64,000 nt of DNA from Kribbella catacumbae DSM 19601. GTDB lineage: Bacteria; Actinomycetota; Actinomycetes; Propionibacteriales; Kribbellaceae. Positions 7,676 to 58,966 of this stretch are shown here, piece by piece. The position numbers and the translations under genes were made by a program. Location: assembly GCF_000372465.1 (NCBI RefSeq), contig NZ_AQUZ01000044.1, forward strand, positions 1 to 64,000, in the 5' to 3' direction. The notes under the pieces are model-generated. The model was not told where the DNA came from and did not search any database. It worked only from the letters and a program-made list of their open reading frames with translations. The number at the start of each line of letters is the position of its first letter. The stretch's first letter is position 1.

Positions 7676-7691
7676 GCAGGCCAACCCGGAG

Positions 7692-7722
7692 GGGCCCACA
7701 CCACAACGCGCGGTGTGGGCCC
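7692..7722 (+). terminator. Hairpin terminator after the triple-repeat protein
   Basis: GGGCCCACACC (7692-7702) pairs perfectly with GGTGTGGGCCC (7712-7722) across a 9-nt loop, 17 bp after the stop codon. Confidence 0.75.
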
Positions 7723-7889: not shown

Positions 7890-7895
7890 GCCAGG

Positions 7896-8495: not shown

Positions 8496-8640
8496 AGCTG
8501 CCTCCTCAGGCGAAACACCCGGCATGAGCGCGAGCTGCGCTGTCGGCCTCGATGGCCGCGGGTGATGGGGTTCTCACCAGGGAAGATGCACCGGAACTTC
8601 CCGATCCCGGCGACGAGTTTCTGTCCTGTGGAAAAGGATC

Positions 8641-8670
8641 GGGCGGCGACACCCAAGGGTGTCGCCGCCC
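8641..8670 (-). terminator. Hairpin terminator of the UPF0182 operon
   Basis: GGGCGGCGACACCC (8641-8654) pairs perfectly with 8657-8670 around an AA loop, 22 bp past the UPF0182 stop on the minus strand. Confidence 0.8.
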
Positions 8671-8691
8671 GGATCAGAAGAGCAGCCGAGG

Positions 8692-44268: not shown

Positions 44269-44274
44269 GCACTT

Positions 44275-45471
44275 CTACACGGCAGCGCTGTCCGTGACGC
44301 AGTCGCGCAGGAAGGACAGTTTCGAGTAGAACGTGCGGTCGAAGGTGATCTCCCGCCGCCGCAGGTAGGACTCCACCAGGGTCGCAAGACGCATCAGTTC
44401 AGGGATGATCAATGAGCTGTCGAGGCCGTCGTGGACGCGCGACCGGTGGTACTCGATCTCGAGCTGCCGCAGCTGGTGATCGCTGTCGACCAGATTCACC
44501 TCGTCGACCTCGATCCCGAAGAAGTGCCCGGTCGCCGACGACTCGACATTCACGTCGAACTTCGTCCGGGTGTAGCTAGGGAGTGCACGCACCTCGTACT
44601 CCGGGTGCCGCTGGGCAAGCAACTCGACCAGGACGTCGGTCGGGATCGTGTCCAGCCGGACCGAGGTCTCCTGTCGGCGCAGGGAGTCTTCGTCGAACAC
44701 CTTGTACTTCAGATAATGGCCGGTGGGCTGCTCCTGGAGAGCCACGTACCCGACCTGGGACGCAGGTGCCAGTACTTCACACAGCTGCAGAGCTCCCTCC
44801 CAGCGCTGCAACTCGTTGCCGACGTCCGGGATGAACCCAGGCAGCTCGACACCTCCGACCTGGGTGGTCAGGTCCGAGGCCAGTCCCCAGATCGACACTG
44901 GGGAACGCAGGGTGAACTTCACCTCGATCTCGGTCTCCTCCTCGAACCGGGTGGAGTCCTGCCACTCCGTCGCCACCTGGCCGTGGAACTGGGGTGCCAC
45001 CGAGAAGGCCGCTCGCACCAGCTCGCTCAAGCTCGCGCCGGCCGCGGGCAGGCGTCCGACGCGGGTGAAGGTGGTCCCGATCGCCCGGACGCGAGTGGAC
45101 ATCAGCACCTCGACCAGATCGTCGGCCGGGATCCGCACCACCATGATGGGCGCCAGGTCGGACGTCCAGCCGGCCGCGGTCCCGGACGGCAGTAGGCGGC
45201 AGAACTCGTCCGCCAGCATCACGCCGTCCCAGATCGGCACCGGCTGATCCGGCGTAGCGATGTCCTGCACCGTGAAATCGTCCGACAGCACCGCGATTCG
45301 GTCGGTGCGCGTCTCGCCCCGGGACAGATACTCGACGGCTGCGGGACCTTCCGCGCGGGTCATGAGTTCCGCCACGACCAGCGGCACTTCGGGCCGCGGG
45401 CGGAGCGCGTACTGCCGGCTTGCGTCGCCCAGCACGAGGTAGCAGGTGGTCTTGCTTGTATCGGCGTTCAT
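44275..45471 (-). CDS. CYTH-like protein (triphosphate tunnel fold?)
   Basis: 398 residues; start has AGAGGA 5-6 nt upstream. The N-terminal ~165 residues match nothing I know. From residue 181 the CYTH signature E-x-E-x-K is present (EIEVKFTL), followed by KYKVFDEDSLRRQETSVRLDT, YTRTKFDVNV and GIEVDEVNLVDSDHQLRQLEIEY, a pattern of alternating charged strands like the triphosphate-binding tunnel of CyaB/thiamine triphosphatase enzymes. It may bind or hydrolyse a nucleotide or polyphosphate. Downstream of a kinase gene, in the divergent arm of the nucleotide cluster. Confidence 0.55.
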   Translation of the reverse strand: MNADTSKTTCYLVLGDASRQYALRPRPEVPLVVAELMTRAEGPAAVEYLSRGETRTDRIAVLSDDFTVQDIATPDQPVPIWDGVMLADEFCRLLPSGTAAGWTSDLAPIMVVRIPADDLVEVLMSTRVRAIGTTFTRVGRLPAAGASLSELVRAAFSVAPQFHGQVATEWQDSTRFEEETEIEVKFTLRSPVSIWGLASDLTTQVGGVELPGFIPDVGNELQRWEGALQLCEVLAPASQVGYVALQEQPTGHYLKYKVFDEDSLRRQETSVRLDTIPTDVLVELLAQRHPEYEVRALPSYTRTKFDVNVESSATGHFFGIEVDEVNLVDSDHQLRQLEIEYHRSRVHDGLDSSLIIPELMRLATLVESYLRRREITFDRTFYSKLSFLRDCVTDSAAV

Positions 45472-45481
45472 GTGATTCCTC

Positions 45482-46150
45482 TCAGCTGTTGCTGATGGTG
45501 AGCCGCTGGCTCACCATCGACATGACATCCGCTGCTACCTCGTCAGCGATCTCATCGGGCGTTCGTTGTCCGGGGACGATGACCGTCCAGCCCAGGTGGT
45601 CGGCCATCCGCAGCAGATTCGAGCGGACCGCGCTCTGGAAACTCTCGAAGGTCCAGTCGCCGGGCTGCAGTCCGCCTCGCTCGGCCAGGGTGATCACGGG
45701 TTTACGCGCGGCGGCCACGGCCGGCGGTACATCTAGCAGGAAGACCCGATCCGGGCGGGGAAGCGCGTCGAGCACGGTCAGCGCGCGATCGAGCGGCAGA
45801 TCGTCGCCAGTCGCGATGCGGGCGACGAACTTGTGGATCCAGTTGTCGTACACGGCGACGCCGGCCGATCCGAGCTCGGTGGTGAGCGCACGATGGAGGC
45901 CGGCGAAATAGGCCGCGTTCAGGTGCAGCCAGTAGTCCGGTCCGAGGTCGACGAGCGGTGCATTCTTCGGACGACCCCAGATCTGCCGGGCCAGGGCGGT
46001 CAACTGCACGCGCGCGAACTCGTCCTGCAGCAGGGGTGTCCGCTTGGCCATCAACCTGGTCGGCACCCCGGCGCTGGTCAGCCGCCCGGCGACCAGTGAC
46101 GCGGTCGTCGTCTTGCCCGAGCCGTCGACGCCTTCAAAGGTGATCAGCAC
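45482..46150 (-). CDS. Divergent thymidylate-kinase-like enzyme 1
   Basis: 222 residues if started at GTG 46150, chosen because GGGAGG lies 6-7 nt upstream and it lines up with the second kinase; an ATG at 46225 gives 247 residues. P-loop FEGVDGSGKTTTAS, helix LGPDYWLHLNAAYFAGLHRAL, and DNW at 102-104 (VYDNWIHKFVAR) where thymidylate kinases have the DR(Y/F/W) motif that contacts the substrate phosphate. The final third (VFLLDVPPAVAAARK) is typical. Likely a (deoxy)nucleoside monophosphate kinase with altered substrate. Next to the CYTH-like gene. Confidence 0.85.
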   Translation of the reverse strand: MLITFEGVDGSGKTTTASLVAGRLTSAGVPTRLMAKRTPLLQDEFARVQLTALARQIWGRPKNAPLVDLGPDYWLHLNAAYFAGLHRALTTELGSAGVAVYDNWIHKFVARIATGDDLPLDRALTVLDALPRPDRVFLLDVPPAVAAARKPVITLAERGGLQPGDWTFESFQSAVRSNLLRMADHLGWTVIVPGQRTPDEIADEVAADVMSMVSQRLTISNS

Positions 46151-46713
46151 GGCCTGCCTCCCGGCTGCGGGGCGATCAGTCCGGTCCGATCCACTGGCGA
46201 CTTGCCAATGCGCGGCGTTTGACAATCGCTTTCCTCAGTGAAATGCCAAATGCCGACCCGGTGACGTATAGGCGATGCCGCCTTCACTGCGTTCTCACGA
46301 TTTCCTCCCCGGACCGAGCGCGTTGGTCGAGGACTGTAGCCGAGCCACCCGGAGGAGTCTACTGCAACAACCTGCAAGTGAATTGGTGTTGACGGGGTCG
46401 CAAACAGCTTCGTAAGCTCCGTCGCCGAACGAGAATTCGTTTGCACACGTTGGCCTAACGGACTCGCAGAGGCAGGGGTCGTGAGGCGTTGTCGGGGGCT
46501 CTGCGGTAGACCGGGGAAATCGGCCGGAATGCTCGTGCACCGATCATTTCGGCGCGCCGCCCAACTCACTGGATCGTTGTGAAACAAGTCCCCCTGCGCA
46601 CCTGGCGATCGACGTGTGGGCGTTTTCAGGTTCGGCTCCGCCGAATACACCGCGGTGTCGTCGGCCAGGTCCGAAGCGGGTTGATGATCTGAGTTAGTGA
46701 GGCGATTCAAACA
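46151..46713. promoter_or_regulatory. Divergent promoter region of the nucleotide cluster
   Basis: About 560 bp between the two kinase/oxygenase start codons, with no supported gene. A plausible sigma-70-type promoter toward the plus operon is TTGACG at 46389-46394, an 18-bp spacer and TAAGCT at 46413-46418, which would leave a ~290-nt leader. TTGACAATCGCTTTCC near 46220 may be a -35 or a weak LacI-like half site. GAGG near 46698 is the only ribosome-site candidate for the GTG at 46714. Confidence 0.4.
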
Positions 46714-48081
46714 GTGATCAACAGCACACCATTGGCACGACCGGGTCCGCTTTGCTCGGTGGCAGAGATCGTCGACGATTCAGGCCACGCCGATCCGTTG
46801 CTGCGGTCCCTGGTGAACACCTTGGCGCAGACCGTGCGCGATCGCGGGTTCCCGTGCATCTTCGCCCGGCAGCCGCTGGACCGTGGCGAACTGCTGCTGG
46901 CGGTGGCCCGCGGGGACCGGGCCGAGTGCCTGGCCGGGGCCGGTGCCGCGTTGCTCGACCTGGCCGAACGGATCCAGGCCGACCCGGAGGCCATCGGCAT
47001 CGTCTTCGTCGACTGTCCCGGCCTCGACGACCTCGACGCCGATCGGGGATTCGCCACGGATCTGCTCCTGCACCTACGCCAGATCGATCCGCAGCCCTGG
47101 CCGGCCGACGCACCGACCGACCCGGATCACCCGGACTGGAACTTCTGGTTCGCCGGCGTGGGCTTCTTCTTCAACTTCAGTTCCCCGCACCACGTCCGGC
47201 GCAACAGCCGCAACCTCGGTCCGGTCCTGACCGTCGTGGCCCAGGCGCGGGCCACCTTCGACGCTCCGGACCGCGGCGGCCTCAAGGCCAGGACCGCCAT
47301 CCGGCGCCGGATCCAGGAGTTCGACGACGTGCGGGTGCACCAGGCGCTGGGCAGTTTCGGCAGCGCCGAGAACCGGGAGATCGACCAGTACTTCCTGGGT
47401 GACGACCAAGCGATCCACCGACTGCTGACCGCCGAGCAGATCCGCGGCAACCGACGCCCCGAAAAGGGCGAGTCAACGACCGACGACCACAACGCTAGGG
47501 AGCGGCAGACAGTGTTCCTCGACGGATCGACAGTGCGGACCTACATCGACCAGGGTCGCTTGGGGTGGGCCGGAGAGCTTCGGCGCGACTCGTTGCTGCT
47601 GCGGCTGGGCGACCGGGTACAGCCGATGGCACCGACCGCGCCCGCGGTCGTCGATCTGACCGACCAGGCACAGATCGACGCGATGTACGGCGAGACCCAG
47701 GTGGGCTGGGAATCCTTCACGCTGCGGCGCGGCGAGCTCGCCTTGTTCCATGCCAGCCAGCCGATGGCACTGCCCGAGGGAGTCGGTGGCTTCATCGGCG
47801 GTCTGAGCCACATGGCACGGCTGGGCCTCACCGTCCATCTGGACACCCCGATCGTCGACTCCGGCTTCAACGGCGTACTGACCGTCGAGATGTTCAACGC
47901 CGGCCCCAGCGACGTTGTACTCCGGCCGGGCATGCCGGTCGCGAAAGTGATCCTGTACCAGGTGGGCGACGGGTCCATCGGTGAGCGGTACAACCATCGT
48001 TTCTATGGCGCCGAGGAGCACATCGGCAGCCAGTACGCAGCCGAGTTCTTCGGCCGGGCCGTGGTGGGGAGTGCCAAGTGA
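46714..48081 (+). CDS. YqcI/YcgG heme-oxygenase-type domain fused to dCTP deaminase-like domain
   Basis: 455 residues, GTG start. Residues ~20-245 match the YqcI/YcgG (FPC/CPF motif) family: GFPCIFARQ with FPC at 46-48, DWNFWFAGVGFFFNFSSPHHVRRNSRN at 141-167 (two parts) and AIRRRIQEFDDV. Known members such as GntA and RohS are heme-dependent N-oxygenases. Residues ~266-445 match dCTP deaminase: VRTYIDQGRLG, LLLRLGD, GLSHMARLGLTVHLDTPIVD, GFNGVLTVEMFNAG, LRPGMPVAKVIL. The catalytic Glu is Glu392, but the usual RSSLAR loop is LSHMAR, so substrate or chemistry may differ. I know of no such fusion. Confidence 0.8.
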   Translation: MINSTPLARPGPLCSVAEIVDDSGHADPLLRSLVNTLAQTVRDRGFPCIFARQPLDRGELLLAVARGDRAECLAGAGAALLDLAERIQADPEAIGIVFVDCPGLDDLDADRGFATDLLLHLRQIDPQPWPADAPTDPDHPDWNFWFAGVGFFFNFSSPHHVRRNSRNLGPVLTVVAQARATFDAPDRGGLKARTAIRRRIQEFDDVRVHQALGSFGSAENREIDQYFLGDDQAIHRLLTAEQIRGNRRPEKGESTTDDHNARERQTVFLDGSTVRTYIDQGRLGWAGELRRDSLLLRLGDRVQPMAPTAPAVVDLTDQAQIDAMYGETQVGWESFTLRRGELALFHASQPMALPEGVGGFIGGLSHMARLGLTVHLDTPIVDSGFNGVLTVEMFNAGPSDVVLRPGMPVAKVILYQVGDGSIGERYNHRFYGAEEHIGSQYAAEFFGRAVVGSAK

Positions 48082-48716
48082 TCGACTGCGCGTTCTGTGA
48101 CGAGTTCGCCGAGCCGACGGCCAAGACCTGGATCGTCGGCCGCACGGCAGACCGGGTGGTACTGCCGACGATCGGCTGCCTGACCGAGGGCTACCTGCTC
48201 TACATGCCGCAAGAGCACACACTGGCTTTCGCCGATCTCGAGGCGAAGGCGCTGGATTCCTGCTCGGCGGACATCGACGAGCTGCGGAGGTCGCTGAACG
48301 ACCGCTACGGCCCGATGATCGTGGCCGAGCACGGACCGCGGGAATGCGACCTCGGGGCCGGCTGCTGCGACCACGCCCACCTTCACCTGATCCCGGTGCC
48401 TGATCCCGATCTGGTGGTGAAGCAGTATGTCGAGGTGGGCGGGCCGCGGCTGGCCTTCGACAACCTCGCCGACTGTCTGGCCTCCGTCGAGGAGGCGTAC
48501 GTCTACGTCTCCCCGGCACCCGACGTTCACTACGCCTGGCCGGCCGTGGGCTTCCCGAGGCAGTGGGTCCGTCGGGTCTGCGCCGACATCCACGGCCGCC
48601 CCGAGGAGTGGGACTGGCGGGATCACCCCTTCGAAGCCGAGCGCAAGCAGACCTATGACGCCCTGGTCGGTCAGGTGACCTTGGCCTCGGCCGACAGCAG
48701 TGATGGCGACCGCTGA
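48078..48716 (+). CDS. HIT-family hydrolase/transferase
   Basis: 212 residues. N-terminal CAFCDEF zinc-type pair, then a HIT fold ending in the triad HAHLHLIPV with His99, 101 and 103. The C-terminal extension (VEEAYVYVSPAPDVHYAW; DWDWRDHPF-like region) is beyond the usual length. HIT proteins act on nucleoside phosphates by a nucleotidyl-His intermediate. GTGA overlap with the upstream fusion gene; coupled translation. Confidence 0.88.
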   Translation: MIDCAFCDEFAEPTAKTWIVGRTADRVVLPTIGCLTEGYLLYMPQEHTLAFADLEAKALDSCSADIDELRRSLNDRYGPMIVAEHGPRECDLGAGCCDHAHLHLIPVPDPDLVVKQYVEVGGPRLAFDNLADCLASVEEAYVYVSPAPDVHYAWPAVGFPRQWVRRVCADIHGRPEEWDWRDHPFEAERKQTYDALVGQVTLASADSSDGDR

Positions 48717-49614
48717 GGTTCTGGCCGCTCCGGTGCTGTCCGAGCTCAGCCTGGCCAAGTGCCGGCGGCTGGGGCAGGACCGGCGCTGGCCGAAGTGGTC
48801 GACCCAGTGCTTCATGCGGTCCTTGGGTCTCCCGGTGCTGAACGCCTGCCTGATCGCTCCGGCCGACCGAGACCAGCTTGCCTCCGTCGTCAACAGCTTC
48901 GCGCGGCGGCTCGGTACCGAGTCAGTGATGGTCCGGTCGGACGGTGGGGTCGAAGCGGTGTCCTACCGCCGGGGCGGCCTCACCCTGCCGGTTCCCGAGG
49001 CGATCGCCTGGGCGGAGCCGGCCCTGGCCGACGGCCGGGCCGTGCTGCTGCTCGAACCGACCAACCGCTTCACCAACGCGTCGACGGCGATGATCAGGAT
49101 CGACCGGTCGATCGGTAAGGGCCCGGACGGCGGTCAGCTGACTGTCGAACTGCTGGGTGCGGGATTCGACCTGGCCGACCTGGCCCGCACCGGGCTGCAG
49201 CCGCACGCGCGGGTCGAAGTGCGCAACATCGACTGGGACCGGCCCGAACCACTCTGGCCGCACGACGTCACGGTCACCGTGGTCACGCTGTCCGACGACG
49301 ACCGCATCGAGCGGCGGCTGGACTTCGTCGGGCGTCACTGCCTGCCGGCCGACGCGCGGTCAGGCACCGGCACGGCAGCAGAACGGGCGAGGGCCTGGCT
49401 CTGGGACCAGGGCTATCGCGATCTCTTCGAGCCGTTCGATCTCGCCTCGGCGCTGCGGTGCCTGCCCGACTGGCACCGGGACGCGTTCTCGATCGTGGCT
49501 GCCCTGCCACAAGAGGACTGGAACTGCGTGGCCACCGGCTGGTCCGACCTGGGCACCGGTCGGCAGATCTATTGGGACATCGTCGACGGGAGTCACAAAT
49601 ATGGCCGTGGTTGA
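48700..49614 (+). CDS. Unknown protein, weak resemblance to a PPDK-type ATP-grasp half
   Basis: About 304 residues (GTG 48700 or ATG 48703). No firm family. SLGLPVLNACLIAPADRDQL and SVMVRSDGGVEA recall the G-L-P-V-P and V-R-S-S-A segments near the start of PEP-synthase/PPDK nucleotide-binding domains, and the downstream PPDK-like protein lacks precisely that part. A split enzyme is therefore possible. The C-terminal third (WHRDAFSIVAALPQEDWNCVATGWSDLG) looks like a separate small domain. Overlaps the HIT gene by 17 bp and the cysteine desulfurase gene by 14 bp. Confidence 0.6.
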   Translation: MMATAEVLAAPVLSELSLAKCRRLGQDRRWPKWSTQCFMRSLGLPVLNACLIAPADRDQLASVVNSFARRLGTESVMVRSDGGVEAVSYRRGGLTLPVPEAIAWAEPALADGRAVLLLEPTNRFTNASTAMIRIDRSIGKGPDGGQLTVELLGAGFDLADLARTGLQPHARVEVRNIDWDRPEPLWPHDVTVTVVTLSDDDRIERRLDFVGRHCLPADARSGTGTAAERARAWLWDQGYRDLFEPFDLASALRCLPDWHRDAFSIVAALPQEDWNCVATGWSDLGTGRQIYWDIVDGSHKYGRG

Positions 49615-50794
49615 TCTGGAACAGCAGAGTGCACTGTACTTCGACTACCAGGCAACGACTCCGGTCGACGCCGGGGTCCTCAACGCGATGCTGCCCTACT
49701 TCTCCGATCACTTCGGCAACGCGGGCTCCCGCCATGTCCACGGCCGGACGGCGGCGGCTGCGGTCGAGACCGCCCGGCACCAAGTCGGCGCTCTCATCGG
49801 GGCGGCCTTGCCAGGGGAGATCGCGTTCACCTCGGGGGCAACCGAGAGCAACGCTCTCGTCCTGCGAACCCTGTTCAGCGGTCCGATGCCGGCTCATCTG
49901 ATCATCTCGGCCATCGAACACCCGTCGATCCTGAACCTGGCCGCGGAGCTCGAACGCTCAGGCCATGACGTCACCCGGCTTCCGGTCGACTCGACCGGCC
50001 TGGTCGATCCGTCGGCGGTGGCAGCAGCCATCACCACGCGGACCCGGCTGGTCTCCGTGATGCACGCCAACAACGAGATCGGCACTGTCCAGCCGATCGG
50101 CGAGATCGGCCGGATCTGCCGGGTCCGGGGCGTGCTGCTGCACTCGGACATGACTCAGTCGGCCGGCAGCCTGCCGGTGGACGTCGAGGCGCTGTGCGTC
50201 GACCTGGCCTCCCTGTCGGCGCACAAGTTCTACGGTCCCAAGGGAGTCGGCGCGCTCTACGTGCGGCAGTCCAGCAGCCTCCGCAACGGGCCGGGATCGG
50301 GTGAGTCGGGCCTACGTCCGGGAACGGTGAACGTTCCGGGGATCGTCGGTCTGGGCACCGCCGCCGAACTGGCCCGGGCCCGTCGCAGTACGGATGCGGT
50401 CCAGGTAGCCGCACTGCGGGACCGGTTCGTCAGCGAGGTCCGGACCGCCCTCCCGGATAGCATCGTCAACGGGCATCCGAGCCTGCGGTTGCCAGGCAAC
50501 CTGAGCATCACTTTTCCGGGGGTGGAGGTCGACGAGATCCTGCGAGCCGATCCCGAGCTCGGGCTGGCGATGGGCTCGGCCTGCACGAGTGGACGCTCCG
50601 AACCTTCGCACGTCCTGATCGCCATCGGTCTCTCGCGCACCCAGAGCCGGTCGACGATGCGCATCGGATTCGGCCGGGAGACCAGCTGGGATGATTGCCG
50701 GCGCTGCCTCGATCGCCTGATACCGCTGGTCGAGCGGGGCCAGAGAAAGGCCGTGGGGCAGCACCGCTTCGGGCCGCTGAGAGGAACGGAATAA
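49601..50794 (+). CDS. Cysteine desulfurase (NifS/IscS type)
   Basis: 397 residues from ATG 49601, which overlaps the previous stop; the longer frame has no site. PLP aminotransferase class V: YFDYQATTPVDAGVLNAMLPYF, TSGATESNALVLRTLF, VMHANNEIGTVQP, PLP Lys209 (SLSAHKFYGPKGVG) and active-site Cys328 (GSACTSGRSEPSHVL). Takes sulfur from cysteine as a persulfide. No iron-sulfur scaffold gene nearby, so it may feed sulfur to the product of this cluster or just maintain a cofactor. Confidence 0.93.
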   Translation: MAVVDLEQQSALYFDYQATTPVDAGVLNAMLPYFSDHFGNAGSRHVHGRTAAAAVETARHQVGALIGAALPGEIAFTSGATESNALVLRTLFSGPMPAHLIISAIEHPSILNLAAELERSGHDVTRLPVDSTGLVDPSAVAAAITTRTRLVSVMHANNEIGTVQPIGEIGRICRVRGVLLHSDMTQSAGSLPVDVEALCVDLASLSAHKFYGPKGVGALYVRQSSSLRNGPGSGESGLRPGTVNVPGIVGLGTAAELARARRSTDAVQVAALRDRFVSEVRTALPDSIVNGHPSLRLPGNLSITFPGVEVDEILRADPELGLAMGSACTSGRSEPSHVLIAIGLSRTQSRSTMRIGFGRETSWDDCRRCLDRLIPLVERGQRKAVGQHRFGPLRGTE

Positions 50795-50795
50795 C

Positions 50796-51446
50796 GTGTT
50801 CGTGTCATTCGAGGGTATCGACGGCTCCGGCAAGACCACGCTGTCCGGGGCGGTCGCGCAGGAACTGCGGAACCGCGGAGCAGACGTGGTGCTGTTCCAG
50901 AAGAAGACCGTTCCGGTGGATGCCGATCCCTACGTCCAGCATCATCTGGCGGCATTGGGGCGGCTCATCTGGGACGACGCCGATCAGCAGCCCATCCACC
51001 TGCTCGGCGACGAGCACTGGGTCCGCCTGATGGCCGCCTACTTCGCCGCCGTGCACGAGGCGGTCATCCAGCCCGCGGTCCAGTCGGGTCGCACCGTCGT
51101 CACCGACAACTGGTACTTCAAGTTCTTCGCCCGGATGACGATCAACACCGGCTACCGGCTGGAGGACTTCGAGAAGGTGTTCGGCGGCGTCGGCCAGCCG
51201 ACCGAGGTCGTCTATCTCGACGTCGATCCCGCCGTCGCCTCGGCTCGCAAGGGCACTTTCACTCGTGGCGAGCTCGGCGAACACCAGCGCGACGGCGCCA
51301 ATGATGGCTTCGTCGGGTACCAGTCGAAGGTCGCTGCCTTCTACCGTGAACTGGCGGCCGACGGGCAATGGCGCTGCATCCAGCCCGGTGCCCTCACTCC
51401 GGCCGAACTGGCGGCGAAGGTTGTCGACCAGTTGGCTTGGCGGTGA
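50796..51446 (+). CDS. Divergent thymidylate-kinase-like enzyme 2
   Basis: 216 residues, GTG start one base after the desulfurase stop. P-loop FEGIDGSGKTTLS, LLGDEHWVRLMAAYFAAVHEAV and DNW at 104-106 (VTDNWYFKFFAR) replacing the DRY/DRW of thymidylate kinases, then VVYLDVDPAVASARKGTFTRGELG. It shares the DNW-xx-KF-x-AR block with kinase 1 on the opposite arm, so the two are a distinct subfamily. Likely phosphorylates a nucleotide intermediate. Confidence 0.88.
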   Translation: MFVSFEGIDGSGKTTLSGAVAQELRNRGADVVLFQKKTVPVDADPYVQHHLAALGRLIWDDADQQPIHLLGDEHWVRLMAAYFAAVHEAVIQPAVQSGRTVVTDNWYFKFFARMTINTGYRLEDFEKVFGGVGQPTEVVYLDVDPAVASARKGTFTRGELGEHQRDGANDGFVGYQSKVAAFYRELAADGQWRCIQPGALTPAELAAKVVDQLAWR

Positions 51447-52732
51447 CCTCGCGCCTTCTGGTCGCCAGCCTCAACCTGAACCGGGGACTGGCGGTCCCAG
51501 CCCGGCGAGCGGCCTTCCACACCTGGCTGGCCGCGTTGAGCCCGGACGTCCTGCTGCTGCAGGAGACAGTGGCACCACAGCGACGTGAGCCCGCCGCTGT
51601 GTCGGGCTATCACCAGGTGACGGGCGAGCGATCCCTCACTGTGTGGACCCGGGACCGGAGCGGGGTGGCCGTCACCGATCTGGACACCTGGCAGCAGACG
51701 GTCGACGTACGCGGAACCAGGCTGCGCAACGTCCACCTCGCCCCGTCGTCCGGTCAGGAGCGGGCCCGGCAACTGGCGGCGATGACGGCGGCACCGGGAG
51801 CCGATGTGGTGATGGGCGATTTCAATCTGGCTCCTCGACCGGCTGACGGCCGCTATGGCGACCAACCGAGCAAGTTCACCAGCGCTGCTGAGCGAGCCGC
51901 GCTGGCCGGACTCCTGGGCAAGGCCGATCTGGTCGACCTGCTGGCGACGGATCCGCCGGAGTTCACCTTCGAGCGGCAACTGCCGGCCGGTCGGTCTGCC
52001 TTCCGCTGCGACCTCGCGCTGGTCGAGCGGAAGCGAGCCGGCTGGACCTTCGCGACCTACGACCACCGGCCGCGGGCAGCCTTCACCGATCATTCTGCTG
52101 TCGTCGTCAGCGTGCCGTTGACCGGGCCGGCCGGAGGTGTCGCGTCGGACGTCGCGCCGACGGCAATACCTGCCCGCACAGCAATCCGGCGCCGCACCGC
52201 TTCCCCGTGGGCCCGGTGGGTACGAAACGACCTGATCGGCCCGGACCGGCCGGGGCCGATCCTCGACTTCGGCTGTGGACACGGCGAGGACGTCCGGTAC
52301 TACGCTGCCGGCAACGTTCCCGCCGTCGGTTACGACCCGGCACCCGAGTTCGGCGCGGCCACGGCTCCGGCCGGAGAGTTCGCTATCGTCACGATGGTCT
52401 TCGTCCTCAACACGATCACCGGTGCGGCTCAACGCCTCGAAGCAGTCCGGCGGGCGGCCGAGCGGCTCGCCGGCGACGGACTGCTGCTGCTCGTCACCAG
52501 ATCGGTGGCTGAGATCGAGGCCAAAGCCAAGGCGAAGAGTTGGGCCCCGGTCGGTGATGGCTACTGGTCCCATCCGGGCCGCCGCACCTTCCAGCGCGGC
52601 ATCGACAGCGAGGAACTTCGGCACCTAGCGGCCTGCGCCGGCCTGGTCCCGGTGACGGACGGGCCCACACCGCCGCGTACTGCGGGCGCCTCGGCCTTGT
52701 TGGTGAGCCGGCAGAGTGCGTTCCGTGGCTGA
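51443..52732 (+). CDS. EEP phosphodiesterase-like domain fused to SAM methyltransferase
   Basis: 429 residues, GTG in the GTGA overlap with kinase 2. Residues 1-226: endonuclease/exonuclease/phosphatase fold with VASLNLNRG, Glu41 (LLLQET), Asp125/Asn127 (MGDFNLAP) and Asp217-His218 (FTDHSAVVVSV). Residues ~245-429: class I methyltransferase with motif I ILDFGCGHGEDVRYY, acidic GYDP and MVFVLNTITGAAQRLEAVRRA. The second half resembles methyltransferases found with DNA phosphorothioation systems. It may remove a phosphate or cleave a phosphodiester and methylate the same pathway's intermediate. Confidence 0.8.
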   Translation: MTSRLLVASLNLNRGLAVPARRAAFHTWLAALSPDVLLLQETVAPQRREPAAVSGYHQVTGERSLTVWTRDRSGVAVTDLDTWQQTVDVRGTRLRNVHLAPSSGQERARQLAAMTAAPGADVVMGDFNLAPRPADGRYGDQPSKFTSAAERAALAGLLGKADLVDLLATDPPEFTFERQLPAGRSAFRCDLALVERKRAGWTFATYDHRPRAAFTDHSAVVVSVPLTGPAGGVASDVAPTAIPARTAIRRRTASPWARWVRNDLIGPDRPGPILDFGCGHGEDVRYYAAGNVPAVGYDPAPEFGAATAPAGEFAIVTMVFVLNTITGAAQRLEAVRRAAERLAGDGLLLLVTRSVAEIEAKAKAKSWAPVGDGYWSHPGRRTFQRGIDSEELRHLAACAGLVPVTDGPTPPRTAGASALLVSRQSAFRG

Positions 52733-54911
52733 GACATTCCCACCCACACCAGAGGAGAAGTCGTCGGATGAAGGCTTTGTCATGATCAGCGGTTGGTGTG
52801 CCAGTCACGACGTCGAAACCGGGGCGGCCGGGCTCACCGGGCGCTGGTTGGCTGCTCCGTTCAGCGAGGACGTCGCCGGCTGGCACGAGGCAGCACCTCT
52901 GCACGGGCTGTCTACCCGGGCCCCCGGCCTGTGGCAGGGGCTGGTCGACGCCGCTGTCGAGCTGCAGACCGAACACAGCGCTCCAGTTGAATTTCTGTTC
53001 GAGGCGACCGACGGGAAGGTACGGGTGGTTCGCGCCCGACCGGCCCGGCTTCAGCCGCGGGCACATCTGGTCGCTGTTCAGTCCCTCGCCGGGCAGGGGG
53101 TCATCACCACGGTCGAGGCGATGCGGGCCGTCCATCCGGCAGAGGTGGAAGCCTGCCTGGTGCCGACTCTGGACCCCACCGCACACACCGTGCTCGGTAC
53201 CGGCCTGGGCGTCTCGGCAGGAATCGGTCGGGGAAAGGTGGTGTTCCACGCCGAGGAGGCGGCCCGGGTCAGCGCTGAAGGCGAGCTGTGCATCCTGGTC
53301 GTCGACGATCTCCGGCCGGAGGACATCGCGGTGAGTCTGCAGCTCACCGGTCTGATCTCCCTGCGAGGCGGGGCGACATCGCACGCCGCGGTGGTGGCCA
53401 AGGGACTGGGCATCCCCATGATCGCCGGGTTGCGTGATGCCCGATTGGATCCGGCCGCCGGAGTGCTGTGGATCAACGACACGGCGGTGGCCCGACATGA
53501 CCGGATCACCATGGACGGCCGCGGCGGCCTCTTGCTAGCGGGTGAGGTCGCCGTCACGACCCAGGAGCTGCCAGTTCTCGACGATCTACTGGAATGGGCG
53601 GACGCAGCCGCGGACGTGGCCGTGCTGGCCAACGCCGACAGCGGCGATCAGGTGGCCACGGCGATGCGGGCGGGTGCCGCCGGCGTCGGGCTTTGCCGGA
53701 TCGAGCATGTGCTGACCACGGGTGGCCATCTCCCGTTGCTGCGCCGGGTCTCCGCGGCGACCGACCCGTCGGAGCGCACAGCGCTGATCGGCGAGCTGAC
53801 CGATGTACTCACGGACCGACTGCGCGAGGTTGTCGCCGCCGCGGGCGGCAAGCCCGTGACGATCCGGCTCCTCGACATCGCTCAGCACGAACTGCTGGAT
53901 CCCAAGGACGACCGCGCCGGCCGGCCGGGCGACGGCCCGGAGGTGAACCCGGTGATGGGTGCCCGGGGGGTGCGTGACCTGCTGGTGGACCGCGACCTGG
54001 GCAGCGCTCAGGTACGGGCCATCATCAGGGCGGGATCACCGACGAACCCGCCCAACATTCTGGTACCGATGATCTCGTTCCCGGAAGAGTTCCGGCGGGC
54101 GCGGAAACTGATCGAGAACGCCTGGTCCGACGAGACCGGTGGCCACGGCACGCGTCCGGCCATCGGCGCGATGATCGAGATCCCTCGCGCCGCCCTTGGC
54201 GCGGCCGAACTGGCCACCGACGCCGACTTCCTCTGCATCGGCAGCAACGATCTCACCCAGTTCACCCTTGCCCTGTCCCGCGACGACGGCCACGCCGGCT
54301 TCCTCGAGCACTACCGCCAGGAGGGCATCCTCGGCACCGACCCCTTCGTCGACTTCGACGACGCCGGAGTCGGCCGCCTGATCCGGCTCTGCGTCGAGCT
54401 GGCCCGGACGGCTCGTCCAGACATTCCTATCGCGGTCTGCGGTGAGCACACGGGTGATCCCGGATCCCTGGCGGCGTTGCTCGAGCTCGGCCTGACCTAT
54501 GTGTCCTGCTCGCCGCACGCAGTGGCGGTGGCGCGGTTCGTCGCCGGACGGCAGGCGATCCTTGCTACCACGCCTGTAGCTGCGCCACCCACCACCGGCA
54601 AGCTGGTCCGCGACCACATTCCGGCCATCATCCGGAAGGCCGGTTTGGAGCCGTTGACCGAGAAGGTGGCTGGAGATCGCTACCGCGGCTATCTCGAGGC
54701 GAAACTCTCCGAAGAACTCGGTGAGTTCCTCGAGTCCGGCAAGGTCGAGGAACTGGCAGATCTCGTCGAGGTCTGTTTCGCCGCGGCAGACCAGCAAGGC
54801 GTCGACCGGGACGCGCTGCTGGCCATCGCGGCCGACAAGCGCAGCCGGCGTGGAGGGTTCACGGAGCAGGTGATCTGGTACGGCAACCAGTCCGCCGCGG
54901 ATCGCAGCTGA
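52716..54911 (+). CDS. PPDK-like phosphotransferase fused to MazG-type pyrophosphohydrolase
   Basis: Up to 731 residues; GTG 52716, GTG 52725 and ATG 52782 are possible starts. Residues ~25-112 are only the end of a PPDK ATP-binding domain (VEFLFEATDGKVRVVRARPAR). The swivel domain has His223 (GGATSHAAVVAKGLGIP). The PEP-binding barrel runs ~295-615 with MGARGVRDLL, GSNDLTQFTLALSRDD and Cys575 (CGEHTGDP), residues essential in PPDK. Residues ~628-725 are a MazG/PRA-PH-like domain: KLVRDHIPAIIRKAG and KLSEELGEFLESGKVEELADLVEV with the E-E-x-x-E ... E-x-x-D metal motif. The bulk of the ATP-grasp domain is missing. Confidence 0.85.
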   Translation: MRSVAETFPPTPEEKSSDEGFVMISGWCASHDVETGAAGLTGRWLAAPFSEDVAGWHEAAPLHGLSTRAPGLWQGLVDAAVELQTEHSAPVEFLFEATDGKVRVVRARPARLQPRAHLVAVQSLAGQGVITTVEAMRAVHPAEVEACLVPTLDPTAHTVLGTGLGVSAGIGRGKVVFHAEEAARVSAEGELCILVVDDLRPEDIAVSLQLTGLISLRGGATSHAAVVAKGLGIPMIAGLRDARLDPAAGVLWINDTAVARHDRITMDGRGGLLLAGEVAVTTQELPVLDDLLEWADAAADVAVLANADSGDQVATAMRAGAAGVGLCRIEHVLTTGGHLPLLRRVSAATDPSERTALIGELTDVLTDRLREVVAAAGGKPVTIRLLDIAQHELLDPKDDRAGRPGDGPEVNPVMGARGVRDLLVDRDLGSAQVRAIIRAGSPTNPPNILVPMISFPEEFRRARKLIENAWSDETGGHGTRPAIGAMIEIPRAALGAAELATDADFLCIGSNDLTQFTLALSRDDGHAGFLEHYRQEGILGTDPFVDFDDAGVGRLIRLCVELARTARPDIPIAVCGEHTGDPGSLAALLELGLTYVSCSPHAVAVARFVAGRQAILATTPVAAPPTTGKLVRDHIPAIIRKAGLEPLTEKVAGDRYRGYLEAKLSEELGEFLESGKVEELADLVEVCFAAADQQGVDRDALLAIAADKRSRRGGFTEQVIWYGNQSAADRS

Positions 54912-54914
54912 TCG

Positions 54915-54946
54915 GTCAGTGACCGGCCGGGTGCGCGGTCACTGAC
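54915..54946. terminator. Bidirectional terminator between convergent cluster operons
   Basis: GTCAGTGACC (54915-54924) pairs perfectly with GGTCACTGAC (54937-54946), loop 12 nt, with outer CGCAG/CTGCG supporting pairs. It follows the PPDK-MazG stop and overlaps the end of the exporter gene. Confidence 0.7.
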
Positions 54947-56144
54947 TCGGCTGCGATACGTCCTCGTGCTCGTTCCGGTTCATCATCGTGTAGGCGGCCC
55001 AGATCAGCAGGCTGGCGATCTCCAGCACCAGGGCGGGCAGCCAGATCCAGAGCTGATTCTTCACGGCGAACGCGTAGATGAGGCCGGACAGGGGGTTCGC
55101 ACCCGCGATGAACATCCGGATCACGCTGTTGACGCGACCGGCCAGCGGCAAGGGGATGACGTCCTGCCGGAACGAGATCGACACCACGTTGCTGAGGCCC
55201 AGCGCATAGGACATCACGGCGTAGGCGGCGATCAGCACCCAGTGCCCCAGCTCCAGTGTGATGACGGCGAAACCGATGCCGGCCGCCACCTGGAAGACCA
55301 GGATCCGCTGCCGCAGGCTCCAACCGGCCAGCGTGCGCGGGGCCAACTTGGCACCGAAGGCACCCAGCAGCAAGCCGAGCGTCAGCGTCACTGAGATGGT
55401 CAGCGGCTCTGCGCCGTCATCGCCCATCGTCGTCACCAGGACCGAACCGAGCCCGCCCAGAGCGAGGTTGGACACGGCCATGGTGGTGACCAGCCAGGCG
55501 ATATCGGGCTTGGCCAGCCAGGCGAAGCCGATCTTCAGGTCTGCCCAGACCCCACTACGATCCCGCTGCAGCCGCACGGTCGGCAGCAGGAGGCTGATGA
55601 GCCCGGCGGCGAAGTAGGTCGCGGCGACCAGTCCGGCCGAGATCCCCGGCCGTACGGCGGTCAGTGCCGCGCCCGCCCCGAGAAAACCGGCCACCTTGGC
55701 GAACTCGATCGCCGAGGCGACGCTGGCCACAGCCTCGGTCCGTCGCTCGCTGCTGACCAACTGCGGGATCAGTACGAACTGTCCGGTGATCGTGCTGGCG
55801 ACACCACCGAACCCGGACAGCAGCAGCATCAGCGCCACGACAAGTTGCTGATCGAGAAACACCGCCGCGACGGCGATACACGTGCCCTGCTGCACCTGGG
55901 AGGCGAAGTACACCGTCCGCCGGTCGAAGCGGTCGATCATTGAGCCGATCAAGGGTGACCCGGCGTAGGCCACGCCGCGCAAAGCCACCGTGAAGATGGA
56001 ACTTGCGACAGAGCCGGTCGCGGCCAGCACCGCCAGCGGAGCAATCAGCAGCAGTCCGTAGTCGGCGACCTTCGACATGATCGACGACATCACCAGAACG
56101 CGAACGACTCCTTGGTCCGAATGCCCTCTGCGACTACTGATCAC
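54939..56144 (-). CDS. MFS exporter
   Basis: 401 residues, GTG start 11 bp inside the upstream ATP-grasp gene. About 10-12 membrane spans. SPLIGSMIDRFDRRTVYF is the loop 2-3 motif of the MFS_3/EntS-type exporters; EVINS-like RVNSVIRMFIAGANPLSGLIY is in the second half. Third gene of the minus-strand operon; it probably exports the cluster's product and may give self-resistance. Confidence 0.88.
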   Translation of the reverse strand: MISSRRGHSDQGVVRVLVMSSIMSKVADYGLLLIAPLAVLAATGSVASSIFTVALRGVAYAGSPLIGSMIDRFDRRTVYFASQVQQGTCIAVAAVFLDQQLVVALMLLLSGFGGVASTITGQFVLIPQLVSSERRTEAVASVASAIEFAKVAGFLGAGAALTAVRPGISAGLVAATYFAAGLISLLLPTVRLQRDRSGVWADLKIGFAWLAKPDIAWLVTTMAVSNLALGGLGSVLVTTMGDDGAEPLTISVTLTLGLLLGAFGAKLAPRTLAGWSLRQRILVFQVAAGIGFAVITLELGHWVLIAAYAVMSYALGLSNVVSISFRQDVIPLPLAGRVNSVIRMFIAGANPLSGLIYAFAVKNQLWIWLPALVLEIASLLIWAAYTMMNRNEHEDVSQPSQ

Positions 56145-57336
56145 TTACGCCCCTCGCTTGGTTCAGCACAGCCAGCGCTGTCTTGAGTTGACTGTCGAAG
56201 TCGGCCCGGTTCTCGCCCCGGAGCAGGATCGTGTGTCCGTAGTCAGTGGCGTGCCGTGCCGCGCCTGCCAGCTCGTACCGCCGGTAGGCCACCAGGCCAG
56301 GGAGAACCGCCTCCAGAGCCGGCTGCAGGTCCCGGTCGGTGACGTTCTGGAAGACGCCGATGATGCCGTGGACGCCTGGGTCGGGTGTGATCGGATCCGG
56401 CAACGTGACCGGATGGCCCATCTGCAACTGGACAGCGGTCTCGATCAGGTTGATCCCGTACTGCCGGCGGACCAGTTCGTCGATGCCACCGCCGCCCGGC
56501 CGGATGGCCGCCTCGCAGAAGGTCGGTGTGCCGTCATCGGCCACGAAAAATTCGACGTGGCTCACTCCGTCCCGGGCGCCGAGCGCGCTCAGAACAGTCT
56601 CGTTGTGGGTCTGGACGATCGCTGCCAGCGGGCCCTCGGTCACCAGAACGCTGCCTTGGTGGCTCTCGTCGCGGAACCGGCCGGGTGCCTGCAGATACTC
56701 GCCGACCGAGGAGAAAGTGACCTGGCCGTTCTGGATGATGGAGTCGCAGTGCACCATTCGGCCTGGCACGAACTCCTCGACCTCCAGGTCGCCCAGGTCG
56801 AGGCGGAGATCGGTGACGGCACTCCACAGTTCCGCGTCGTCGTGGACGATCCGCACGTCCGAGGCGCCCAGGCCCCATCGGCTCTTGACCACTGTCGGTC
56901 CGGCCCAGGGCAGCTCGGCCACCCGCGTCGCCGAGGTCAGCGACCGGAACCCGGGGACAGACTCGTAGCCGGCGGCAACCAGCAGCTGCTTCATCAGCAG
57001 CTTGTCGCGGAAAGGCATCGTCTCGTCCACCGTGAGACCGGGCAGGCGGAACCGCTCGCGGAGGGCCGCCGCCAGCAGCATGTCCTTCTCGTGAATGGCC
57101 ACCAGCCGCCCGGCGCCCCGGCTGGAGATCAGCCAGTCGGCCGCAGCCTCGACCCGGGATGAGCTCCTCATATCGCACACGGTCACGTCCGGGAACGCTT
57201 CAGCCGTCCAGCCGTCGAGCCCGCCGGCGAAGGTACGAGTGAGCAGCACCCGGTCGGAGGCTGCGACGGGCAGGTAGCTGCCTTGCGCACCGGCCGTCCA
57301 GCCGAGCCGGTGCCGGTTGATCAGCACGGTCTTCAC
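56134..57336 (-). CDS. ATP-grasp ligase 1
   Basis: 400 residues. N-terminal pre-ATP-grasp region to about 100, then FRDKLLMKQLLVAAGYESVPGF, the P-loop-like strand TVVKSRWGLGASDVRIV, VEEFVPGRMVHCDSIIQNG, and metal-binding VEFFVADDGTPTFCEAAIRPGGGGIDELV. Matches carboxylate-amine ligases of natural-product and carnosine-synthase type, which join an acyl phosphate with an amine. Overlaps ATP-grasp 2 by 4 bp. Confidence 0.88.
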   Translation of the reverse strand: MKTVLINRHRLGWTAGAQGSYLPVAASDRVLLTRTFAGGLDGWTAEAFPDVTVCDMRSSSRVEAAADWLISSRGAGRLVAIHEKDMLLAAALRERFRLPGLTVDETMPFRDKLLMKQLLVAAGYESVPGFRSLTSATRVAELPWAGPTVVKSRWGLGASDVRIVHDDAELWSAVTDLRLDLGDLEVEEFVPGRMVHCDSIIQNGQVTFSSVGEYLQAPGRFRDESHQGSVLVTEGPLAAIVQTHNETVLSALGARDGVSHVEFFVADDGTPTFCEAAIRPGGGGIDELVRRQYGINLIETAVQLQMGHPVTLPDPITPDPGVHGIIGVFQNVTDRDLQPALEAVLPGLVAYRRYELAGAARHATDYGHTILLRGENRADFDSQLKTALAVLNQARGVSDQ

Positions 57337-58520
57337 GGGCTCTCCGTTGTGATCGCCGGGGCTGCCAGCACCTGCTCGAAGGTCATCGTCACGGCCTGCC
57401 GCGAGCCGATCATCCGCCCGGACCCAAGTCGGTGCGCCGAACTCAGCAGCGGCCCGACCACGTCACCGATCTGCGGTGTCACGGTCCAGTAGTCCCAGGC
57501 GACCTCCGGCATCGACGGCGGCGCCGTTTCCAGAGAGGTCACCACACCTGGACTTGCGGTGAAGAAGACGATCGCGGCCGCTTCTGAGCGGACTTCGTCC
57601 GGCTGCGGTTGCCGTCCCAACGGCCAGCCCAGGCAGGCCAACCGCCAGTCAAGACCGGTCGTCGCCGAGACCAGATCCGCGATGCCATCGCCGCCCGGCC
57701 GGTTGTGAGTCTCGACCACTACGATCTCTTCGCCTTGGACGATCAGCTCGCTGTGCGCTGGGCCGTCTCGGTAGTCCAGGGCGTCCAGCAGGTCCGTGAC
57801 CGCCTGCCGGACCCGATCGCACTGCTGCTCGGACAGCGACGGCGACGGCGTGACATGGCCGATCTCGACGAAGTTCTCGCCCAGCCGCTTCTCGACGATG
57901 AGAACGACGGCGTGCTTCCCTTCCTCGCTGAGGCTTTCGACACTCACCTCGACGCCTTCGGCGTAAGCCTCGACCAGGGCACCGCGGCGCAGGCCGGGGT
58001 CGAGCCGGTCGAACTCATCCAGCGAACGCACCCGCCGGACCCCGTCGCTGGCCGTGCCCAGGGGCGGCTTGACGATGACCGATCCGTGAGCGCCCAGCAG
58101 CCGGCCGACGGCCGCGCGATCGTCCCCCGACGCGGTAGCCACGGTCAGCCGCGGTGCCGACTGCGCCAGCACAGCTCGCATCGCGGCCTTGTCCCGCATC
58201 GCGTTGACGACGGTCGGCGGCGTGCCCGGCGTACCGAGCAGCTCGGAAAGCTCTGCGGCGCAGACGAGTCCCTGCTCTGTCATGGACACCACGGCAGACG
58301 GATGCACGGTCGCTTGCAGCAGCTGACCGAAACGGGCGAGCTCGGGCGGCAAGTACTGCCGATAGTCGAAGAGGAAGAACTGGTCGCGGAGCGGACGAAG
58401 CAAAGAAGTCAGATCCCGGGCGGTGTGGTCGACGATGATCAGATCGACGTCGAGCTTCCGCGCTACCCGGACAATGTTCGCCGACGGTCCGATCAGGACC
58501 AGCGATGCGCGGTCTGCCAA
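57333..58520 (-). CDS. ATP-grasp ligase 2
   Basis: 395 residues, TTG start with GGGGAGGGG site just upstream. N-terminal Rossmann-like part (LVLIGPSANIVRVARKLDVDLIIVD), MRDKAAMRAVLAQSAPRLTVA, SVIVKPPLGTASDGVRRV, ALVEAYAEGVEVSVESLSEEG and metal site SELIVQGEEIVVVETHNRPGGDGIADLV. Similar to DdaF/BL00235-type amino acid ligases. With ligase 1 and the MFS gene it forms a tight three-gene operon facing the plus-strand operon. Confidence 0.88.
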   Translation of the reverse strand: MADRASLVLIGPSANIVRVARKLDVDLIIVDHTARDLTSLLRPLRDQFFLFDYRQYLPPELARFGQLLQATVHPSAVVSMTEQGLVCAAELSELLGTPGTPPTVVNAMRDKAAMRAVLAQSAPRLTVATASGDDRAAVGRLLGAHGSVIVKPPLGTASDGVRRVRSLDEFDRLDPGLRRGALVEAYAEGVEVSVESLSEEGKHAVVLIVEKRLGENFVEIGHVTPSPSLSEQQCDRVRQAVTDLLDALDYRDGPAHSELIVQGEEIVVVETHNRPGGDGIADLVSATTGLDWRLACLGWPLGRQPQPDEVRSEAAAIVFFTASPGVVTSLETAPPSMPEVAWDYWTVTPQIGDVVGPLLSSAHRLGSGRMIGSRQAVTMTFEQVLAAPAITTESP

Positions 58521-58966
58521 GATCCCCTCCCCCAGAATTCGCGGCCGCTCCGATCATCGATGACCAGAGCGAAATGCACTGTCGCGCGTTGTATCCGCGT
58601 AGACATTGCAGCAGATGCACTGACGTGTCAAGGCATGCAGACACCGTCCGATGCAGGTCGATGTCTCGCGGGGGATGAGCGGATTCGTCAACCCCTGAAG
58701 GAGATTCGGCGCCAAGGCCGCCCGGCTCTTTGAAGTCCAGCGCCCCACCGCCGGGCAAGGTGACGGGCATCACCATTCAAAGAGGAACAGCGGTTCAATA
58801 AGTTGCAGCTTTTCCCCCCAGCCCGCATCTTGCACATTTCAACAGCTCCAGGTATCGAAGCCCATCAAGTGGCACGGACGAGGAAAGAGGCTCGCGGCAG
58901 CGTGTCCGTACCCACGACCTTGGCGCCTGTTGCTTCCGGCTTTTGCTTCTGGCGAGCGAGCAAGGT
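58521..58966. promoter_or_regulatory. Promoter region of the ATP-grasp/exporter operon
   Basis: No supported gene. A candidate minus-strand promoter is TTGACA (58626-58631, reverse) with a 17-bp spacer to CAATGT (58603-58608, reverse), giving a leader of about 80 nt. The remainder up to the MMPL terminator shows no recognisable structure. Confidence 0.4.

Follow-up and report, generated by a model that had tools for sequence, protein, structure and literature searches.

What kind of product, if any, is made by the unusual run of genes at positions 44275-58520 of contig NZ_AQUZ01000044.1 from the actinomycete Kribbella catacumbae DSM 19601? A preliminary description of this DNA proposed a single cluster of thirteen genes that would build an amide-bearing, secreted compound on a nucleotide. 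All the genes that it named are present within that span of the window (the whole stretch analysed, 64,000 nucleotides), but we count 12 of them (Table 1). Two reverse genes (CYTH-like and TMPK1) are followed by seven forward genes, several of which overlap by a few bases in an operon-like manner, and by three reverse genes (MFS, ATP-grasp A and ATP-grasp B); an extra reverse-strand open reading frame (ORF; 46144-46710) overlaps TMPK1, has no match in Pfam and was excluded from the count. With moderate confidence, we regard the island as horizontally acquired and as directing the synthesis and export of a small molecule built from a modified nucleotide, with amino acids in amide linkage. Each kind of enzyme in it is already known; for the gene combination, nothing relevant was found in the literature covered, mostly outside subscription journals.

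The island and its insertion site

The 12 genes constitute a single insertion that separates a pair of genes neighbouring each other throughout the genus, namely a molybdopterin-oxidoreductase gene, which we label formate-dehydrogenase-like, and an MMPL gene. Both flanking genes are present in 38 of the 38 genomes of the genus Kribbella that were searched, that of K. catacumbae included, and the flank matches lie 75 to 643 bp apart in six of them (G028, G027, G030, G017, G013 and G037; here and below, G and L numbers are our handles for genomes and loci) and a few kilobases apart in others. The region was fetched from 16 of the 37 siblings; there, a tblastn search (1e-4) with all island proteins recovered nothing but the two flanking genes, and hence none of the 12 island genes. 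Given the conservation of the flanks and the absence of all 12 genes from these 16 regions, the island is a real unit that did not arise by chance. The preliminary description had itself named independent housekeeping genes as the case that would speak against a cluster. This explanation was rejected, because the full-length YqcI-deaminase gene occurs in the K. catacumbae genome alone among the 38 of the genus, the 37 others matching it in the deaminase part alone (~30%). In many siblings (L040-L047), the site between the flanks carries different genes, pointing to a possible hot spot for insertions; sibling L040, for instance, has its own MFS gene there, with no match to that of the island.

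Table 1. Features of the island and its flanks, with positions in the window
Feature	Coordinates	Strand	Module	Matches and remarks
Molybdopterin-oxidoreductase gene, left flank	42013-44268			Labelled formate-dehydrogenase-like by us
Insertion between formate-dehydrogenase-like and MMPL genes	44269..58960	.		Sibling homology ends at 44258 at the latest and restarts at 58960 at the earliest
CYTH-like protein (ExExK motif alone)	44275..45471	-	C	44% identical to the L084 homologue
TMPK1, thymidylate-kinase-like, 222 residues	45482..46150	-		Pfam Thymidylate_kin 4e-9
YqcI/YcgG haem N-hydroxylase domain (residues 39-233) fused to dCTP-deaminase-like domain (269-416)	46714..48081	+		Pfam 3e-36 and, for the deaminase part (DCD), 4e-18
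HIT-like protein	48078..48716	+	A	HxHxH triad in 11/11 copies; Pfam HIT 0.29, below cut-off
Orphan, predicted free-standing ATP-grasp enzyme	48700..49614	+	A	AlphaFold model
NifS/IscS/DndA-like cysteine desulfurase	49607..50794	+	A	Pfam Aminotran_5 1e-66
TMPK2, thymidylate-kinase-like	50796..51446	+		Pfam Thymidylate_kin 5e-11
EEP phosphatase/phosphodiesterase fused to S-adenosylmethionine (SAM) methyltransferase	51443..52732	+	A	Pfam Exo_endo_phos 2e-9, Methyltransf_23 3e-12
C-terminal dikinase half (phospho-His and phosphoenolpyruvate (PEP) domains) with MazG-like pyrophosphatase	52716..54911	+		Pfam PEP-utilizers_C 8e-63, PEP-utilizers 2e-16
MFS exporter	54939..56144	-	C	Pfam MFS_1 2e-13; 43-48% identical to MFS of L084, L093, L094, L095
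ATP-grasp ligase A	56134..57336	-	C	Pfam ATP-grasp_4 6e-7; 32-37% to five module C clusters
ATP-grasp ligase B, LAL_C2-like tail	57333..58520	-	C	Pfam ATP-grasp_4 1e-13; LAL_C2 2e-4, below cut-off
MMPL gene, right flank	59014-61218

Two gene sets that occur separately elsewhere

The idea of one cluster holds in so far as the insertion is single, but its content is a composite of two sets, modules A and C, that occur separately in other genomes. A single pathway is, therefore, something that we infer, and the shared insertion and interleaved layout are the basis for placing both modules on one molecule.

Module A consists of the dCTP-deaminase-like domain, the HIT-like protein, the orphan, the cysteine-desulfurase-like enzyme, the EEP-methyltransferase fusion and the MazG-like pyrophosphatase. 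It is whole in 10 of 10 other loci, located in seven Streptomyces genomes, two Streptomyces plasmids and one Pseudonocardiales bin; the two plasmids were discovered via the deaminase domain of the YqcI-deaminase query and the eight remaining loci with a profile of the orphan (pattern-limited contig scan). The nine Streptomyces loci include L032, recorded as [Kitasatospora] papulosa, and S. roseus and S. goshikiensis are among the species with the module; G498 and G499, apparent repeats of L029 and L032, were counted once, and G369 holds parts of a further copy on two contigs. Common to the nine is a layout with MazG forward, EEP-methyltransferase and a LysR-type regulator reverse, and the deaminase-HIT-orphan-desulfurase block forward. 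The regulator family is found in all nine copies and every other flanking gene family in at most two loci, as judged with a simple ORF caller. The closest copy is that of the Pseudonocardiales bin (L026), in which the deaminase, HIT, orphan and desulfurase proteins are 62-71% identical to those of the island, the dikinase half and MazG are adjacent in different frames and the LysR gene is retained (60% to that of L024). The motifs tested in the desulfurase, HIT, EEP, methyltransferase, orphan and MazG proteins, as well as the deaminase glutamate, are retained in all 11 copies. Few genomes have the module, namely 3 of 392 in Streptomyces and, with K. catacumbae counted, 2 of 394 in the class. 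Among 79 Streptomyces genomes, the EEP-methyltransferase was present in 3/3 orphan-positive and 0/76 orphan-negative ones, for which the chance is 1 in 79,079; the 76 were taken as negative by their inferred membership in the Streptomyces orphan search. Kinases of the island's DN type (see below) gave five weak matches (2e-8 to 5e-7) in 4 of the 11 module A genomes or records, all on other contigs, and no YqcI domain was detected in the 15 genomes with module A or C by a search without a positive control.

Two features of individual copies may be mentioned here. Just before the deaminase-like gene of L026 lies a short, apparently degraded second copy of the N-terminal part of the orphan (8364-8762). 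The same locus has a cysteinyl-tRNA synthetase gene near module A (4244-5665), and a gene grouped with it by sequence clustering is found about 6 kb from the module in L031 (18388-19779), possibly by coincidence.

Module C comprises the CYTH-like protein, the ATP-grasp ligases, the MFS exporter and, sometimes, a kinase. Of 394 genomes searched in the class, 7 have a match to the CYTH profile, K. catacumbae among them; the six others represent module C in one case (L084, genome G338), another set, module B, described below, in three (L082, L083 and L085) and partial matches in two (L086 and L087). In L084, a single cluster without module A combines CYTH, TMPK and MFS with both ATP-grasp ligases. 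Among 392 Streptomyces, four gave a match to the ATP-grasp A profile at E 1e-50. Across the five Streptomyces clusters (L084 and L093-L096), ATP-grasp A is present in 5/5, ATP-grasp B, CYTH and MFS in 4/5 each and TMPK in 3/5, the CYTH and ATP-grasp A counts being partly by construction, because the loci were found with those queries. Three of the clusters (L084, L093 and L094) are closely related. The ATP-grasp B of L094 was recognized via the L084 protein alone, that of L084 lies below the Pfam cut-off, and a 103-residue match in a 111-residue ORF of L095, with no Pfam match, was left uncounted.

From the recurrence of these genes in five clusters lacking module A we conclude, on sequence comparison, that the ligases, exporter and CYTH-like protein of the island are a separate set, elsewhere paired with another N-hydroxylase. 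The clusters have the CYTH-like protein, ATP-grasp ligases, MFS and kinase in common with the island, but carry a flavin-dependent Lys/Orn N-oxygenase (4/5), ArgG-like (4/5) and desaturase-like enzymes where the island has YqcI and module A. The oxygenase, the desaturase-like enzyme, ATP-grasp ligases and CYTH occur together in L084 (1018-13452), L093, L094 and L096, and L084, L093 and L094 additionally encode ArgG-like, FemAB-like, MFS and TMPK proteins. No published description of these clusters turned up, although no search was aimed at them. Thus, the co-occurrence in other actinomycetes for which the preliminary description had proposed to look is found, for module A in 10 of 10 loci and for the ligase, exporter and CYTH set in five clusters, of which four also encode an N-hydroxylase.

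Enzymes of the island and a proposed pathway

The YqcI domain aligns with the solved enzyme AglA (4e-22). Cys48 of the island protein aligns with the haem thiolate Cys44 of AglA, the gating residues Phe152, Arg179 and Phe182 correspond to F152, R179 and F182, and Arg166, which contacts the haem carboxylate, to R166; Lys196 and Arg200 align with R193 and R197, respectively. The family acts in the miharamycin, ambocidin, guanitoxin and argolaphos pathways (PMC12866846). In view of the retained key residues of AglA and of the natural-product pathways that use the family, hydroxylation of an arginine-type guanidine appears to be the likeliest activity of the domain. The island thus shares with these pathways a haem N-hydroxylase of the same family, haem ligand and gating residues included, and differs from them in that YqcI is fused to a dCTP-deaminase-like domain amid nucleotide enzymes (PMC12866846); such a fusion was found in no paper of the literature covered, which was mostly outside subscription journals. 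In the deaminase-like domain, which scores below the NCBIfam equivalog cut-off (73.5 vs 92.8), the equivalent of the catalytic Glu138 is aligned in 11/11 copies.

The orphan remains one in that neither Pfam nor NCBIfam matches it, but an AlphaFold model built on nine sequence rows (predicted local distance difference test, pLDDT, 82.7) gives it an ATP-grasp fold. Its highest VIA Z values are to the ATP domain of rifampin phosphotransferase (13.2; 226 residues, root mean square deviation 4.0), PEP synthase (13.0) and PPDK (12.8), many other ATP-grasp structures being near 10. The best Foldseek match by E-value is another ATP-grasp enzyme, the D-cycloserine synthetase DcsG, while VIA puts dikinase-type domains first. 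We therefore predict an ATP-grasp enzyme that is dikinase-like by fold alone.

Several of the remaining enzymes are divergent members of their families. The desulfurase has the pyridoxal phosphate lysine (HK) and the catalytic loop cysteine (GS[AS]C) in 11/11 copies; its NifS score is 384 bits against a cut-off of 531, and the NifS, IscS and DndA equivalog cut-offs are all missed. In the EEP-methyltransferase fusion, the motifs GDFN, TDHS and GCG are retained in 11/11 copies. TMPK1, for which we assign a GTG start preceded by GGAGG (the longest ORF extends to 46225), is 38% identical to TMPK2. Both retain P-loops (GVDGSGKT and GIDGSGKT, respectively) and fall below the dTMP kinase equivalog cut-off (36.4 and 52.8 bits vs 83.25), and they have in common with the module B kinase a DN-x3-K motif in place of DR, which we take to be the usual dTMP kinase motif. 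Proteins annotated ‘NikS protein’ share up to 33% identity with ATP-grasp A, and ATP-grasp B is 35% identical over 367 residues to its counterpart in L096. Three labels of the preliminary description survive in reduced form. The HIT hydrolase keeps its triad and has weak PDB matches to HIT and CWF19-like proteins, but stays below the Pfam cut-off. In the CYTH-like family, E181, E183, K185, E338 and E340 are invariant in 6/6 members, the ExExK motif of CYTH proteins among them; Pfam and PDB matches are missing. The PPDK-MazG fusion is indeed a dikinase half joined to a MazG-like tail, but the former aligns with PPDK from residue ~260 on, so that most of the ATP-binding domain is missing, and the latter is below the Pfam cut-off, while being 48-59% identical to module A pyrophosphatases. 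The TSHAAV and CGEH motifs, presumably those of the phospho-His and PEP sites, are aligned in the dikinase half; the host genome contains, apart from it, a long dikinase frame with 34% identity. A dikinase gene also belongs to the phaseolotoxin cluster.

All of the island chemistry is inferred from sequence. In the reading that we favour, module A would take a nucleotide, which its dCTP-deaminase-like, HIT, EEP and MazG-like parts would bind or cut; a group on the nucleotide would be activated by the orphan ATP-grasp enzyme, sulfur would come from the desulfurase-like enzyme and methylation would fall to the methyltransferase. Phosphates could be added and moved by both altered kinases together with the half dikinase, as in cryptic phosphorylation, and the EEP phosphatase would strip them. 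The YqcI domain would N-hydroxylate a guanidine, most likely that of arginine, the two ATP-grasp ligases would attach one or two amino acids through amide bonds and the MFS protein would export the product, with hydrolysis of its triphosphate form by the MazG-like pyrophosphatase perhaps serving for self-protection. The product is probably sulfur-bearing; here the argument comes from one enzyme, and desulfurases can serve other ends. A bolder version, possible although we doubt it, is that module A is a mobile sulfur-nucleotide route operating without radical SAM or PP-loop enzymes, through an ATP-grasp and desulfurase pair, and travelling as plasmid cargo, which is coupled here to ligation of N-hydroxyarginine and to export, yielding a new class of peptidyl nucleosides.

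By family, the amide ligase, exporter and N-hydroxylase of peptidyl-nucleoside clusters are all present, and Pfam recognized no known nucleoside-core enzyme among the 12 proteins. Ligase A resembles NikS, presumably the ATP-grasp ligase of nikkomycin, of which no other enzyme was recognized in the island. In pseudouridimycin biosynthesis, the proposed role of an ATP-grasp ligase is to attach an amino acid to the nucleoside, and N-hydroxylation also occurs (PMC10127198). ATP-grasp ligation, N-hydroxylation, a guanidino group and a kinase of unclear role are the points of likeness, whereas a pseudouridine synthase and a flavin N-hydroxylase there contrast with YqcI, the desulfurase, the EEP-methyltransferase and the dikinase half here (PMC10127198). 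The 4'-thiothymidine cluster thmABC encodes a nucleoside kinase and a triphosphatase giving self-resistance (PMC12691670). This small cluster resembles the island in its pairing of a kinase with a nucleotide phosphohydrolase and in a sulfur-containing product, which for the island is probable; unlike the island, its three genes do not include a ligase, N-hydroxylase or desulfurase, and a radical SAM enzyme, of which none was recognized in the island, is thought to place the sulfur (PMC12691670).

A number of observations weigh against a nucleotide-based, exported amide. Radical SAM enzymes apart, pseudouridine synthase, polyketide synthase and enolpyruvyl transferase were not recognized among the 12 proteins with Pfam, nor was a PP-loop or other known sulfur-acceptor enzyme. 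By profile alignment, the deaminase domain differs from E. coli dCTP deaminase at Arg110 and Arg126, both presumably functional. The CYTH label lacks a Pfam match in 6/6 members and a PDB match, and the single-sequence model has a pLDDT of 37. In L026, two in-frame stops fall within the dikinase-half match, close to the N terminus. Pairwise distance matrices of the module A proteins correlate at 0.85-0.99, which could stem from common ancestry alone. A split dikinase formed by the orphan and the half dikinase stays an idea only: the fold would fit, but hhalign, with a shallow alignment, detected no relation between the orphan and the ATP domain of the host dikinase, and the nine Streptomyces copies of module A have no dikinase half nearby. 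YqcI is beside 0/10 of the other module A loci, and one module A flank (L032) is of defence type. Finally, relatives of the ligases, exporter, kinases and CYTH were not found beside the nine Streptomyces copies, so that the product there need not be secreted. The recurrence of the two sets and the YqcI residues favour the amide-bearing secreted product of the preliminary description, with a nucleoside as its putative core.

If the favoured reading is true, a conserved set of six proteins is dedicated to a nucleotide chemistry for which we found no described pathway, and the transfer of sulfur to a nucleotide by an ATP-grasp and desulfurase pair, the role of the altered thymidylate kinases and the reason why some Streptomyces phage-plasmids hold small biosynthesis-like sets in one exchangeable slot all become testable. 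The recurring ligase-export set can be used as a query in other genomes, and nucleoside analogues are a major drug class.

The plasmid slot and alternative readings

The genomic context of module A on plasmids bears on its function. On plasmid NZ_CP107821, the position just upstream of a phage portal gene is occupied by module B. In this set, which Streptomyces plasmids share with genomes of other actinomycetes, the CYTH and TMPK families stand beside QueD, QueE, FolE, DUF2797, a PNP-like protein, a methyltransferase and, mostly, NUDIX. On the related NZ_CP108441, module A takes this position. Of the eight plasmids with that portal gene, seven were viewed (NZ_CP070374 in part); their slots are filled by module A, module B, genes of Ddl/Mur-ligase type, a graspetide pair, an EEP-radical SAM-methyltransferase set, or radical SAM with dnaE. 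These contents resemble small biosynthetic sets, and their presence in the same slot tilts the interpretation of module A towards biosynthesis. The slot spans 10507-16799 in L024 and 1024-9678 in L060, the latter being one of the module B loci, with L059, L061, L082, L083 and L085. Module B includes a further unknown protein, and its NUDIX was unmatched in L061 and L085 by the query used.

Could module A instead serve anti-phage or inter-plasmid defence, through a toxic nucleotide or the destruction of deoxynucleoside triphosphates, with module C as an unrelated biosynthetic neighbour? We consider this unlikely. Its domains act on nucleotides, it resides on two plasmids, one of which has phage capsid and portal genes, and the missing exporter and ligase relatives in Streptomyces suit this explanation. 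PADLOC, however, run on 10 of the 12 island proteins, strongly matched the desulfurase alone, the other nine having no match or weak ones (E 1e-5 or worse, in P-loop and HIT regions). Among 10 flank proteins from seven module A loci (1e-5), four were matched, namely an MBL-like and an E2-E1-JAB protein in L032, mad3 (2e-26) in L031 and mad2 (8e-13) in L028. Pfam reads the L031 gene as the ATPase of a sugar-type ABC transporter and that of L028 as a PCMT-type methyltransferase, which leaves L032 as the sole clearly defence-type flank. Furthermore, a LysR-type regulator family in all nine Streptomyces copies and the graspetide-type, Mur-ligase-type and 7-deazaguanine-type sets in the same plasmid slot fit defence poorly. 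In L032, the metallo-beta-lactamase-like (MBL-like) gene and the E2-E1-JAB fusion directly follow module A (7316-11394).

Also improbable, and slightly more so, is an amide product without a nucleoside, such as an N-hydroxyarginine peptide or a phosphorus-nitrogen compound, with the kinase-, dikinase- and MazG-like enzymes acting on other phosphorylated intermediates. YqcI enzymes are known to act on arginine derivatives, a phosphonopeptide included (PMC12866846), ligases, exporter and N-hydroxylase would suffice for such a compound, and L084 has no obvious nucleoside enzyme besides its kinase; but the deaminase-like, HIT, EEP and MazG-like set, conserved in 11/11 copies, would be left unexplained, and the TMPK family also belongs to a 7-deazaguanine gene set. 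Very unlikely, in our estimation, is a modification of DNA bases or backbone, in which sulfur or another group would be put on a nucleotide entering DNA. The desulfurase scores like DndA/SspA, the methyltransferase half resembles the phosphorothioation-associated TIGR04096 (1e-13, 50.9 bits, cut-off 150), and the CYTH and TMPK families also stand beside QueD/QueE/FolE on a phage-plasmid. Yet DNA-binding and polymerase genes were unrecognized among the 12, the exporter and ligases would have no role, and the orphan had no match in 50,697 phage records and was not found in viral contigs. The likeness to Dnd phosphorothioation ends with the DndA-like desulfurase and the methyltransferase: a Dnd or Ssp system was rejected, as the partners DndB-E and SspB-D were not found by Pfam (12/12 genes) or PADLOC (10/12). 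The DNA-base modification and defence roles that the preliminary description had offered as alternatives are, accordingly, weakened by the PADLOC results, with the E2-E1-JAB flank as a point in reserve for defence. A phage origin of module A was likewise rejected, the YqcI-deaminase protein being, as was the orphan, not found in viral contigs by short-pattern scans.

Two further plasmid loci with thymidylate-kinase-like genes were observed. On a plasmid of S. europaeiscabiei (L068, 8192-13653), a TMPK-like region lies inside an aminotransferase gene, accompanied by two EEP proteins, a formyltransferase and a nearby radical SAM gene. A Rhizobium plasmid (L067, 5036-11283) combines a pyrophosphatase, two radical SAM proteins and a dTMP-kinase-like gene, an assortment that recalls the 4'-thiothymidine cluster.

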